The notes under the pieces are model-generated. The model did not search any database. It saw only the letters and a program-made list of their open reading frames with translations, and was not told where the DNA came from. 21,786 nt of DNA from a virus, in the IMG/VR virus record IMGVR_UViG_3300007352_000437, positions 1-21,786 of that record. One strand, 5' to 3'. Below are positions 16,216 through 21,786 of the stretch, piece by piece; within the stretch, counting starts at the first letter, position 1, and each line of letters begins with the position of its first letter. Position numbers and translations under genes: made by a program.

Positions 16216-18189
16216 CTACGACAGCAGGGCGCCAGTGCCCTTGACGAACGACTCGCCGCGGCGCACTGCGGTGTCGGCCATCGAGTAGCTGGTGATCAGG
16301 ATCTGGCCGCGGGCGGCTTTGGTGACGACATCGACCACGATCTCGAGGTCGTTGCCCCACATGCCCACCAAGAGGTCGTTCCAGTTGCCGAAGACCAGGC
16401 CGTGCTCGTTCGCGCCGGCGCCGAGCGTCTTGGAGATCTGGTTCGTGGTCCGGGCGGGGTAGCCGCCGAGCTCGCCCTCGCGGTAGGTGCCCGACCACAG
16501 GAACACCGGGTAGCCGCTGACCAGGGGCGTGCGCTTGAGCACGCCGGCCATCAGCGGGGTGGTCATCCAGGACAGCGCGCCGAGGTCGGCGTTCTTGTCC
16601 GCGACCAGGGCGGGCATCGTGGTGATGTCCGCGAGGTCGGGCACGCCGCCCACCGGGTGGGATTGCACGTCGGCAGCGCCGTAGATGCCCACGGGCTGCT
16701 TGTCCGTGCCCTTGCCGTGCAGCGCGCCCAGGTCCAGGGCCAGTCCGTGGCCGGTCGCCAGGTCGCTGCGGATGTCCGCCTCGACATCGATTGAGGACAT
16801 CACCAAGAGCTGCCGCGGGATCTGCACTTGGCCGATCAGGGTCTTGGGCGAGAGCGACACGTAGCCGTACGCCGGCTCGGACTGCGGCGCGTCGCTCGGC
16901 GGATTCTCCTCCATCCACGCGACCGTGGGCGCGCCGGTCTTCTTGTTGAAGTACACGACACCCTGCAGACCCGGGTAGAGCTTGGCGCCAGCGACCAGGA
17001 CCAGCGCCCGGTTGCGCAGCAGGTCGATCATGTCGGGCATGATCTGCTGGCCAACCAAGGTCGCCCCGCCCGTGGGCTGGGTCGTGCCCAGGACGCGCTG
17101 CTGGTCGTCGCCGTCCAGGCGCCACGGCACCAGCACGCCGCCGTGGTCGGCGCCGGTGCGGTGCTTGGTGAGCTCGTCGTGGACCTCGGCCTCCAGACCG
17201 TCGTACCGGCTGCGCTTGCCGTCCATCAGCTCGGCCTGCATGCGGATGGCGCGGTGGATGGAGTAGCGCTTCTTGTCCCGGACCGGCATCGCGGCCAGCG
17301 CTTCGGCCGCCGGCTGCGCGGGTCCTTGGGTGCGGACGGCCTTGAGAATCTCGCGCGAGACCTGGTCCGGCGTCAGGCCCTGCCTGAGCCAGCCGGCCGC
17401 CTTGTCGGTCACGCCGTAGGACTGGGCCATGTCCATGATCTCGGCCGCTTCGGCGCCGCGATCCCGCATCTCGACCTTGGGCGCCGGCGCAGGGGCCGGT
17501 GCCACCGGGGTCTCGGTGCCCGGCGCGGGGGCTTGGGCCGCGGTGGGCTGGGTTCCTGCATCGACACTCATGGTTCGCTCTCCTTCGCAGGCGGGTTCTT
17601 CGATCGTGAACTCGACCAGATCGACGTCGGGCGCCGTTCGTGCGCGTCCGAAGCCGACCTTCGGGTCAGCGGGGATGGGTTCGGTGGAGACTTCATAGGG
17701 CATCCAGCGGCAGCGGTAGGTGGCCAGGCCCGTCTTCTTGTCCTTCGAGACCATCTCCATCGACAGGACCTGGTAGCCCACCGAGACAGTCTTGATGTGC
17801 CCCTCGCGGAGCATCGTCTCTTGCTCCTGGCCCAGCGGGATGGACGAGAAGCTGGCCATACCGCGCAGACGCTTGCGCTTCTCGTCGAGCTCGATGTCGT
17901 TCACCGAGCCAAAGTGCAGCAGGCGCTGGTGGGACTTGATCAGCGGCAGGCCGATCTTGGCGCGGCCGAGGTCCACATCGCCAGCGACGTGGGACAGGAC
18001 CTCGTCGTACTCCTCCCAGGTGTCCCAGGAGTAGCGGCGCACGGGCGCTTCGCTGGAGAAGGACACCGGGTAGAGGCGGACCTCACCCTCGCCGCCATCG
18101 GCGCGGGCCTCGACTTCGACCTCGAAGTCGCGGTACTGGATGCGCGGCACCTTCACGGTGCGCGTCTTGATGGCACTTGGCGTTTCCAT
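16216..18189 (-). CDS. Prohead protease-major capsid protein fusion (HK97 type)
   Basis: A 657-residue polyprotein. Residues 1-205 are an HK97-type U35 prohead protease: V-R-R-Y-S-W-D-T-W near 50, L-P-L-I-K-S-H-Q-R with probable catalytic His87, I-K-T-V-S-V-G-Y with probable Ser136, and Y-E-V-S-T-E-P-I-P-A-D with Glu166 as the likely third member. A Pro/Ala linker (205-240) leads to a helical scaffold-like delta region (about 240-345). G-G-V-L-V-P at 351-356 then marks the start of the HK97 capsid fold, which runs to the end. In HK97 these are two genes, a 225-aa protease and a 385-aa capsid protein; here there is no stop between them. Met207 has its own strong ribosome site, so free capsid protein is probably also made. 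The outer start at 18189 has no clear ribosome site. Confidence 0.88.
   Translation of the reverse strand: METPSAIKTRTVKVPRIQYRDFEVEVEARADGGEGEVRLYPVSFSSEAPVRRYSWDTWEEYDEVLSHVAGDVDLGRAKIGLPLIKSHQRLLHFGSVNDIELDEKRKRLRGMASFSSIPLGQEQETMLREGHIKTVSVGYQVLSMEMVSKDKKTGLATYRCRWMPYEVSTEPIPADPKVGFGRARTAPDVDLVEFTIEEPACEGERTMSVDAGTQPTAAQAPAPGTETPVAPAPAPAPKVEMRDRGAEAAEIMDMAQSYGVTDKAAGWLRQGLTPDQVSREILKAVRTQGPAQPAAEALAAMPVRDKKRYSIHRAIRMQAELMDGKRSRYDGLEAEVHDELTKHRTGADHGGVLVPWRLDGDDQQRVLGTTQPTGGATLVGQQIMPDMIDLLRNRALVLVAGAKLYPGLQGVVYFNKKTGAPTVAWMEENPPSDAPQSEPAYGYVSLSPKTLIGQVQIPRQLLVMSSIDVEADIRSDLATGHGLALDLGALHGKGTDKQPVGIYGAADVQSHPVGGVPDLADITTMPALVADKNADLGALSWMTTPLMAGVLKRTPLVSGYPVFLWSGTYREGELGGYPARTTNQISKTLGAGANEHGLVFGNWNDLLVGMWGNDLEIVVDVVTKAARGQILITSYSMADTAVRRGESFVKGTGALLS
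17569..17585 (-). promoter_or_regulatory. Internal ribosome site and start for free capsid protein
   Basis: Within the fusion gene, AAGGAGAG at 17585-17578 is followed by 6 bases and an ATG at 17571-17569, in frame (codon 207). It stands exactly at the junction between the protease domain and the delta region. Translation from here gives a 451-residue precursor, close in layout to HK97 gp5 (delta domain plus mature capsid). The site is far better than that of the outer start, which would give capsid protein in excess over protease fusion, recalling the nested in-frame starts of lambda C/Nu3. Confidence 0.72.
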
Positions 18190-18221
18190 GCACCCAGTAG
18201 TGATGCAATCGCGAAGGCCCG

Positions 18222-18248
18222 ACCAATCTAAATGTCATTTAGATTGGT
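18222..18248. promoter_or_regulatory. Palindrome in the divergent capsid/connector gap
   Basis: ACCAATCTAAATG (18222-18234) and its exact reverse complement (18236-18248) flank a single T, forming a nearly perfect 27-bp palindrome. It is AT-rich in a GC-rich window and lies in the 90-bp gap between two divergent genes (starts at 18189 and 18280). This is where an operator, bidirectional promoter element or recombination site could sit. No T-tract follows on either strand, so an intrinsic terminator is unlikely. An ATG within the palindrome (18232) is in frame with the connector gene but has no ribosome site. No convincing -35/-10 pair was found. Confidence 0.7.
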
Positions 18249-18279
18249 GGGCTCATGCGCGCGGTGGCACCGTGAGCGC

Positions 18280-18837
18280 ATGGCAATCGAACTCGCAAAC
18301 CTCCCTGACCAGTTCGCCGCCGGCACGACCGTCTGCTACCGCAGGCGGCTTGTCGACCATCCGGCCTCAGAAGGGTGGACGCTGCAGGTCTACCTGGCCG
18401 GCGCGAGCGTGCGCGCCAAGACGGCGGTCGCCGACGGCGACGACTTCCTGATCACCATCGAGGCCACAGACACCGAGGGCGGATTCGCTGCCGGCCTCTA
18501 CAAGTGGGTCGAGCGGGTCTCGAACTCGGGCGGCGAGGTCTACGAGGTGGGCCGCGGCTCGGTCACGGTGCTGCCCAACCTGGCCGAAGCCACCGAAGGC
18601 AGCGAGCAGGAGTGGATCGAACGGGCGATCGCCACGCTGCGTGCTCACATCGAAGGCCGGCTGCCCGCGGGGATGGAGAGCTACCAGATCGCCGGCCGCG
18701 TCGTGGCGAAGATGCCGATCAAGGAGGCGGTCAGCCTCCTGTCCAGCCTCGAGTCCCGCCTGGCTGGTCTGCAGAACACCGGGTCCTTCACGCGGCCAGT
18801 CCTCGTGTCGTTCACCGGACCCGGGTTCGACCGATGA
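18280..18837 (+). CDS. Putative head-tail connector (gpW-like), upstream of portal
   Basis: A 185-residue protein ending in an ATGA overlap with the portal gene, the position of lambda gpW. The first 100 residues form strands (T-V-C-Y-R-R-R-L-V-D-H-P-A-S-E-G-W-T-L-Q-V-Y-L-A-G, then G-L-Y-K-W-V-E-R-V-S). The C-terminal half is helical, and A-G-M-E-S-Y-Q-I-A-G-R-V-V-A-K-M-P-I-K-E-A-V-S-L-L resembles the gpW-type ending that precedes portal genes in many siphophages. The start at 18280 is preferred over 18232, which lies within the palindrome. The ribosome site is weak. In standard order a terminase gene lies upstream; here the upstream neighbour is the divergent capsid gene. Confidence 0.65.
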   Translation: MAIELANLPDQFAAGTTVCYRRRLVDHPASEGWTLQVYLAGASVRAKTAVADGDDFLITIEATDTEGGFAAGLYKWVERVSNSGGEVYEVGRGSVTVLPNLAEATEGSEQEWIERAIATLRAHIEGRLPAGMESYQIAGRVVAKMPIKEAVSLLSSLESRLAGLQNTGSFTRPVLVSFTGPGFDR

Positions 18838-20345
18838 AGCGGCCGCTGCAGACACGCGTCCGGCGCGCATTCCAGCTCGCGATGCGAGAGCTTCGGGGCC
18901 AGCGCGGCGTCTTCGACGGGGCGGGCGTCCACCGGCTGCTTTTGGACTGGATCGCCCAGACCCGGTCCGCGGACGAGGAAGTCCGTGGCGACATCCGCAT
19001 GCTGCGCGCCCGCGCCCGTGAGCTCGGCCGCAACAACAGCTACGTCAAACGCTACTTCCGCCTCCTGGTGACCAACGTCATCGGGCCCATGGGGATCAAG
19101 CTCCAGGCCCAGGTTTGGGCCGGCGACCAGCCCGACACCAAGACCAACGCGGCTATCGAGGCGGCCTGGAATGCCTGGGCCACTGGCCCGGTCACGGTCG
19201 ACGGTCGGCTCACTCTGCGCCGCTTCGAGAAGCTCGTCATCAAGACGGTAGCGTGCGATGGCGAGGCATTTGTTCGCCTGTGGCGGGGGTTCGAGGGCAA
19301 CGCCTTCGGTCTGGCCCTGCAGGCGATCGATGCTGATCTGATCGACGAGACGTTCAATCGCCCACGTCGCGGGGCGCAGAACGAGATCCGCATGGGCGTC
19401 GAGATTGACGCCATCGGACGGCCGGTCGGCTATTGGGTCTGGGATGCCGTGGGCACCGACTTGGTGCGGGAGCGCTACTTCGTGCCTGCGGGCGAGATGC
19501 TCCACCTGTACGACCCCGAGCGTGTGAACCAGACCCGCGGCGTGACCTGGGTCCATTCGGTCATGGTCCCGGCGCACATGCTCAATGCCTACGAGGAGTC
19601 GGAGGCCGTCGCAGCCCGGATCGGCGCCTCGAAGATGGGGCTGTTCGAGAAGCGCGCCGACTCGCTGGCCGGGGACCTTGCGGCCAGCTCGAAGCCCGCG
19701 ACCATGGAGGCTAACCCAGGCACGTTCGAGATCGTCCCTGACGGCTACGAGTTCAAGGCCTGGGAGCCGGATCACCCGACCGCCCAATTCCCGGCGTTCA
19801 TCAAGCAGATGCTCCGCAAGATCGCCTCAGGGTTCAGCGTCTTCTACAACGTGCTCGCCAATGACGCGGAGGGCGTCAGCTACTCCACGATGCGGAGCTT
19901 TGCGTTGGTCGAGCGCGACGACTGGCGGTCTATCCAGCAGGACTTCATCGACGGGTGGCGCCGGCCGCTGTACGCGGTGTGGCTTGGCATGGCTTTGCTC
20001 ACGGGCGGCCTGAAGCTCCCTTCCCGCGACCCCTCCCGCTACCTAGCTGTCCGGCATCGTCCGCGCGGCTGGCAATGGATCGACCCCGAAAAGGAAGCCC
20101 GGGCGGCTGTGATCTCGATCCAGAACGGATTGGGGACGAGAACCGGCTTCCTCGCCGAGAAGGGCGAGGACATCGAGGACGTCTTCGCCGAGTTGGCCAG
20201 GGAGCAGGCGCTGGCCGAGGAGTACGGGATCAACGTCTCGGGCGAAGTGCCGGCGAGCCAGAAGGATTCGGCCGATGGGTCCGACGAGGCGGCCAGCGGC
20301 GACGAAGCAAGCGAGAAGAGCGGTAGCGCAAGCGCGACCTCGTGA
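18834..20345 (+). CDS. Phage portal protein, lambda type
   Basis: A 503-residue portal protein that would form the dodecameric ring through which DNA enters the head. Family features are R-A-R-A-R-E-L-G-R-N-N-S-Y-V-K-R-Y near residue 65, then N-V-I-G-P-M-G-I-K-L-Q-A, A-C-D-G-E-A-F-V-R-L-W, I-D-A-D-L-I-D-E, and the C-terminal crown region P-E-K-E-A-R-A-A-V-I-S-I-Q-N-G-L-G-T-R-T, which matches the lambda-type (gpB) family well. An acidic Ser/Asp/Glu/Ala tail ends the protein. The length is close to lambda gpB (533). It is coupled to the gpW-like gene by ATGA. It lies on the opposite strand from the protease-capsid gene that normally follows it. Confidence 0.93.
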   Translation: MKRPLQTRVRRAFQLAMRELRGQRGVFDGAGVHRLLLDWIAQTRSADEEVRGDIRMLRARARELGRNNSYVKRYFRLLVTNVIGPMGIKLQAQVWAGDQPDTKTNAAIEAAWNAWATGPVTVDGRLTLRRFEKLVIKTVACDGEAFVRLWRGFEGNAFGLALQAIDADLIDETFNRPRRGAQNEIRMGVEIDAIGRPVGYWVWDAVGTDLVRERYFVPAGEMLHLYDPERVNQTRGVTWVHSVMVPAHMLNAYEESEAVAARIGASKMGLFEKRADSLAGDLAASSKPATMEANPGTFEIVPDGYEFKAWEPDHPTAQFPAFIKQMLRKIASGFSVFYNVLANDAEGVSYSTMRSFALVERDDWRSIQQDFIDGWRRPLYAVWLGMALLTGGLKLPSRDPSRYLAVRHRPRGWQWIDPEKEARAAVISIQNGLGTRTGFLAEKGEDIEDVFAELAREQALAEEYGINVSGEVPASQKDSADGSDEAASGDEASEKSGSASATS

Positions 20346-21655: not shown

Positions 21656-21704
21656 GGTGACCAGCAGGGATCTATTCGACAAGGCGATGTCAACGCCGGT
21701 TTGA
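21648..21704 (+). pseudogene. 5' end of a gene cut by the IS21-like end
   Basis: ATG at 21648 (8-bp overlap with the preceding stop) or GTG at 21657 opens a frame reading M-A-E-V-T-S-R-D-L-F-D-K-A-M. At 21688 the IS21-like terminus begins and the frame ends in TGA at 21702-21704 inside it. Overlap with the upstream gene suggests this was the next gene in the portal transcript. Fourteen codons are too few to identify it. It would be the first place to look for a missing lysis or packaging gene on the other side of the insertion. Confidence 0.45.
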
Positions 21705-21786
21705 TTCTCCCCTTTTCCGCCGAAGTAATTTTCCCCACCCCATGACCTCTCGTCCGGTCAGCTGACCGGTCTGGCATCATCCTCCT
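21688..21786. mobile_element. IS21-like element end (right contig edge), inverted relative to 1-99
   Basis: Starts TGTCAACGCC and is the exact reverse complement of bases 1-99. The boundary at 21687/21688 interrupts the small frame beginning at 21648. The two edges carry the same end of the same element in opposite orientation, so the element body lies outside the window on both sides, or the assembly graph joins both edges at one repeat node. Confidence 0.55.

Follow-up and report, generated by a model that had tools for sequence, protein, structure and literature searches.

The nested protease and scaffold genes of phages lambda (C/Nu3) and Mu (I/Z) each occupy a single frame with two in-frame starts. 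The long product bears the protease and the short product is its assembly partner, and the C terminus that the two share admits the protease to the prohead. In HK97, an S78 protease (gp4) and a capsid protein (gp5) with an N-terminal delta domain as a built-in scaffold are encoded by separate genes. Fused genes have been described in actinobacteriophages of clusters AM, AU, AN, EE, and EL and in RRH1 (PMC5513430, PMC7302621), in which one gene likewise encodes an S78 protease and an HK97-like capsid protein; the passages of those papers that describe the fusions do not mention an internal start. A homologue of the fusion examined here, 619 to 629 aa long, is present in Dinoroseobacter phage vB_DshS-R4C and Rhodobacter phage RcCronus (Cronusvirus), where it is annotated plainly as the major capsid protein (MCP). 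The R4C shell has T=7 architecture with 415 MCPs (PMC10276861). The R4C gene product is the 629-aa fusion, and the capsid structure was solved as a 268-residue chain (8gta); in the portions of the structure paper covered by a term search (PMC10276861), neither cleavage nor a protease is mentioned.

The window, meaning the whole stretch of DNA that was analyzed, is a 21.8-kb virus record (IMG/VR record IMGVR_UViG_3300007352_000437; 21,786 nucleotides). It shares the S78 protease, delta domain, and capsid fold with HK97, but protease and capsid are fused in one gene, with the following features:

16216 to 18189, minus strand: protease-delta-capsid fusion open reading frame, 657 aa, with the outer ATG at 18189 to 18187 and the stop codon at 16218 to 16216.
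17596 to 18189, minus strand: S78 prohead protease domain, residues 1 to 198, by Pfam (PF04586), a conserved triad, and the structure model.
17931 to 17929, 17784 to 17782, and 17694 to 17692, minus strand: catalytic codons His87, Ser136, and Glu166, respectively.
17470 to 17589, minus strand: fast-changing disordered linker containing Met207, residues 201 to 240 (pLDDT below 50).
17155 to 17460, minus strand: helical delta-like scaffold domain, about residues 244 to 345, with predicted helices, between the protease and the mature capsid.
16219 to 17067, minus strand: mature HK97-fold capsid part, about residues 375 to 657, by PF05065, phmmer, Foldseek, and VIA.

There is no stop codon within positions 16219 to 18189 of the minus strand, the outer ATG has an in-frame TGA 48 nt ahead of it, and both domains share one uninterrupted frame here as in 84 relatives. 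Residues 55 to 174 match Peptidase_S78 (PF04586; E value of 2e-5 and 25.2 bits versus a gathering cutoff of 21). Across the fused homologues, Ser136 and Glu166 are kept in 84 of 84 proteins and His87 in 81 of 84 by alignment column; the three exceptions are alignment slips, as those proteins retain the KSH motif. The catalytic His-Ser-Glu residues of Peptidase_S78, which the preliminary description had named, are therefore conserved. Residues 375 to 652 match Phage_capsid (PF05065; E value of 2e-30, 106 bits), and phmmer matched residues 377 to 651 to the R4C capsid chain 8gta (E value of 6e-29). The capsid fold also agrees with that of the R4C capsid by Foldseek (E value of 4e-19) and by VIA (Z of 17.4, root mean square deviation of 4.0 over 243 residues). 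An AlphaFold2 model of the fusion, built with 50 fused homologues, has a protease-like N-terminal half (pLDDT mostly 80 to 90 for residues 41 to 170), helices at residues 244 to 342, low confidence at residues 201 to 240, where Met207 lies, and at 360 to 384, and the capsid thereafter. The fold search listed capsid matches only, so the assignment of the protease half rests on Pfam and the conserved residues. Both Pfam matches, the absence of an internal stop, and a model with a protease-like fold before Met207 and delta helices and capsid after it bear out the initial reading of a single frame, which lies on the minus strand, as an HK97-type protease joined to a delta-domain capsid protein.

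Neighboring genes encode head-tail joining and portal proteins on the plus strand and tail proteins on the minus strand. The contig ends carry a perfect 99-bp inverted repeat (positions 1 to 99 and 21688 to 21786). Beside the left copy lie fragments of an integrase-core transposase (7 to 408) and of ACR_tran, together with a cation efflux gene and a DUF302 gene; this left-end DNA may derive from the host or a mobile element, or the assembly may be chimeric.

Two further elements lie at the joint between the protease and the delta domain:

17569 to 17571, minus strand: internal start codon, ATG (Met207), invariant in a 13-sequence alignment and kept in 27 close loci.
17578 to 17585, minus strand: internal Shine-Dalgarno (SD) sequence AAGGAGAG, with a 6-nt spacer to the ATG.

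The sequence before the codon 207 ATG (17571 to 17569, minus strand) is GCGAAGGAGAGCGAACC, which contains AAGGAGAG at 17585 to 17578. Its anti-SD duplex energy of -8.8 kcal/mol is the strongest among the 49 in-frame ATG, GTG, and TTG codons, so the ribosome site that had been noticed six bases ahead of this codon is also the best candidate in the gene. The predicted product from Met207 is a 451-aa capsid precursor (codons 207 to 657). Several downstream genes in the window have good SD sequences, and the host therefore evidently uses them; no 16S sequence for a check of the anti-SD was found in four metagenome-assembled genomes (MAGs) with near-identical genes.

Relatives of the gene were collected from IMG/VR and GTDB genomes at about 30% to 98% identity, and nearly all of them are two-domain single frames. 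In the 13-sequence alignment, the linker around the invariant Met207 varies in both length and sequence. Among the 27 close loci (56 to 98% identity, several of them near-identical and not independent), the start and a GGAG core are kept as DNA while the peptide differs: the variants at the SD read EGER, EGVR, GGER, and TGGED, and the GGAG bases are constant throughout. The Gly codon within the SD is GGA in all 27 of these loci, and GGA accounts for 11% of the Gly codons in these genes; of the 27 columns with an invariant Gly, the SD column alone uses a single codon. The preliminary description had proposed an alignment of homologues as a test that could refute it, and in these relatives the internal Met and its ribosome site are both conserved. 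Genes up to 95% identical (L096 to L102) occur in MAGs labeled Krumholzibacteriia, Fibrobacter, Verrucomicrobia, and Planctomycetota; these labels conflict, and the binning may be wrong. One locus (L038, positions 0 to 1454) was considered as a split protease/capsid pair and rejected, because its frame changes within the delta region, away from the joint; the two overlapping frames there reflect either a sequencing error or a real frameshift.

The family-wide scan covered 103 fusions, including those of 19 named phages, grouped into 44 clusters at 60% identity. It was anchored on the invariant Asp175 at the end of the protease, and the next 75 codons were scanned for an in-frame ATG with AGGA, GGAG, or GAGG at 4 to 11 nt. 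Such a start is present in 37 of the 44 clusters, and an in-frame ATG, with or without an SD, is present in this interval in 43. The same scan out of frame yielded three clusters (+1) and none (+2), and seven other in-frame intervals yielded 1 to 7. Counted by codon, 41 of 70 ATGs in the linker have an SD versus 44 of 670 elsewhere (Fisher P = 5e-25). Synonymous-codon shuffles of the linker gave 23.8 ± 2.2 clusters, with a maximum of 30, versus the 37 observed. The shuffle mean is high because the residues encoded in the linker (Glu, Gly, and Lys) favor SD-like words, and the protein sequence of the linker also appears to be shaped by the start signal. The SD core occurs mainly in two codon phases (25 and 11), the residues that follow the internal Met (S, P, E, T, and D) resemble those of an N terminus, and the signal persists in relatives that share only about 30% identity and whose linkers cannot be aligned. 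The internal start, first presented as a specific design, is not peculiar to this phage and is a feature of the family.

Named carriers of the internal SD and ATG include R4C (codon 189), RcCronus (190), VP882 (185), CRP-811 (404), CRP-823 (312), and Stenotrophomonas phage S1 (207), as well as Persinger, PPpW-3, and Escherichia coli phage HeidiAbel_Bas97. In the group of ten phages that includes ep3, HeidiAbel_Bas97, and Mica, the Met lies exactly between a variable linker and a conserved K(I/V)LRDA-GNL. In HeidiAbel_Bas97, a phage of E. coli K-12, the internal ATG of the fusion (XPK41221.1) is followed by EKILRDAAGNL and has the SD-like sequence GAGGG. A few clusters, among them those of L086, L092, S-LBS1, and FoX3, have no SD, and the SD is weak in Mica and Mano; most of the clusters with an absent or weak SD still have a Met at the joint. 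The cyanophages S-LBS1, S-CBS3, and S-CBS1 retain the Met at the linker boundary without an SD, and cyanobacteria rely less on SD initiation. Some fused genes are longer (995 aa in L052, 816 aa in L113, and 835 to 836 aa in L109 and L122), with the extra sequence N-terminal of the protease; in CRP-811 (L113), this extension has a weak TUDOR-type Pfam match.

The actinophage fusions, whose sequences are very divergent from that of the window gene, carry an in-frame ATG behind an SD close to the junction in five of five representatives (RRH1, AN, EE, AU, and EL). The EL/AU type was covered by an alignment of 74 full fusions in 35 clusters, 33 of which have an ATG or GTG with an SD just before NVF(D/E). 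Controls at 22 other positions yielded 0 to 8 clusters, and those out of frame yielded 1 and 0. This site was found by anchoring on the NVFD motif; an ATG scan in 30-codon bins missed it because alignment gaps shift its position. In AN and EE, the site is retained in the near relatives found, whose closeness means that they add little weight, and a more distant AN relative (L136) has no such site by the same criteria. The internal start of this second lineage (L128, L129, and L147 to L226) stands before M(x)2-3NVF(D/E) and after a long protease-capsid stretch, which the internal product would not include.

Given an internal start and ribosome site conserved across fusion lineages, the best explanation is nested in-frame initiation yielding both the fusion and a free capsid precursor, and on these patterns of conservation we consider it very probable. 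Two in-frame starts on one mRNA would be used. The outer ATG would give the 657-aa protease-delta-capsid fusion, and we infer that ribosomes also start at the internal ATG, which has its own SD within the flexible linker and would give a 451-aa delta-capsid precursor, the counterpart of HK97 gp5. By analogy with HK97 biology and R4C, the fusion would coassemble with the free precursor, as it could because both products share the capsid domain, and would carry the protease covalently into the prohead. There the protease would cut off the protease and delta segments to leave roughly 280 residues as the mature subunit. The comparison with lambda C/Nu3 drawn in the preliminary description holds at the level of logic. 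Like those genes, the window gene has a second in-frame start, which is conserved and is preceded by a ribosome site of its own. However, in lambda C/Nu3 and Mu I/Z the short product serves only as scaffold and the capsid has a gene of its own, whereas codons 207 to 657 here hold the whole Phage_capsid match (residues 375 to 652), making the short product a predicted delta-capsid precursor and not a separate scaffold. The gene would thus work like C/Nu3 and yet is no member of that group, because its short product includes the capsid domain.

At the outer start, which bears on how much of each product would be made, the clade of the window differs from much of the family. The outer start, ACTACTGGGTGC-ATG, has an anti-SD duplex energy of -0.9 kcal/mol, in line with the earlier remark that it lacks a clear ribosome site. 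This absence is itself conserved: throughout the clade of the window, the outer start has no SD and lies downstream of a conserved upstream block and a palindrome, which faces two divergent genes:

18223 to 18247, no strand: palindrome CCAATCTAAAT-gtc-ATTTAGATTGG, between the divergent capsid and joining/portal genes; candidate operator.
18280 to 18837, plus strand: head-tail joining protein (phrog_5774, E value of 4e-25), divergent from the capsid gene.
18834 to 20345, plus strand: portal protein (phrog_21, E value of 5e-101), divergent from the capsid gene.

In the close clade, the palindrome CCAATCTAAATgtcATTTAGATTGG occurs once per locus in the divergent region (18190 to 18279 in the window), with conserved half-sites and a variable 3-nt center, and it looks like an operator for both the capsid and portal operons. 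The portal gene is divergent from the capsid gene in 29 of 29 members matching at 55% identity or more, and the portal and joining genes are divergent throughout the close clade (L002 to L016, L030 to L036, and L096 to L100). In most distant relatives, both are upstream of and codirectional with the capsid gene, and in R4C and RcCronus (Cronusvirus) the portal gene is so placed, unlike in the window. Good SDs are frequent at outer starts outside the clade, and the outer start of R4C has one, unlike that of the window.

It is possible that the outer start in this clade is leaderless and under the shared operator. A reading built on this possibility has both starts in use with the outer one as the main start, driven by a regulated divergent promoter, so that the fusion would not be a minor product. 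The conserved lack of an outer SD next to a conserved block and palindrome is consistent with this reading, as are the divergent joining gene, which also has no SD, and the frequency of good outer SDs outside the clade. However, no sigma-70-like promoter was found in a scan of positions 17400 to 18400, around both starts, and the outer start region is predicted to be more paired than the inner one, and we regard a predominant outer start as doubtful. An abundant capsid precursor with a minority of fusion, as originally predicted, is plausible for the clade of the window but does not extend to the family. With the best candidate taken as the outer start, the inner SD is the stronger in 25 of 44 clusters (Wilcoxon P = 0.08), and a generally stronger inner start was rejected as not significant.

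A second alternative makes the fusion the sole product, with the protease cutting its own linker and the conserved EGERTM serving as a cleavage site and not as a start. The protease would then be joined to its own substrate through a linker that is exposed in the model, and the nearest relatives conserve the motif at the protein level. Across the family, however, the SD and ATG are kept and the peptide around the Met is not, GGA is fixed against codon usage, and the SD varies in codon phase. By arithmetic, a protease domain of about 22 kDa on each of 415 subunits would also add about 9 MDa of protein inside a T=7 shell, and we consider a fusion-only gene very unlikely. That the internal SD and ATG are an unused relic of formerly separate protease and capsid genes, which are the usual HK97-type arrangement, is scarcely credible, as a relic would decay, yet the signal is kept at about 30% identity with unalignable linkers and in at least two divergent lineages.

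Protease-capsid fusion and the nested-start principle are each already known; the former is described in the actinobacteriophage papers (PMC5513430, PMC7302621) and had been acknowledged at the outset. What appears to be unreported is a capsid precursor made as a nested product, with conservation of this arrangement among fused phage lineages. The open-access literature searched contained no report of an internal start in fused protease-capsid genes, an absence that is weak evidence with most subscription journals lying outside it. Beyond the window, internal capsid initiation is likely to be a general rule of protease-capsid fusions, with the start kept or regained and fusion possibly having occurred on several occasions. 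Fused lineages would keep this start because a protease attached to each subunit would prevent shell assembly.

If this is true, dozens of genes now annotated as major capsid protein or as capsid and protease fusion would encode the real major capsid precursor as an unannotated product. Nested initiation predicts such a precursor in many published phage genomes, including those of R4C and the BASEL-collection E. coli phage, and it would let annotators locate the beginning of that precursor by a simple rule. With a protease on each capsid subunit, a shell would contain hundreds of proteases; the conserved internal start would answer that problem and would carry the nested-start principle of lambda C/Nu3 over to the capsid protein.
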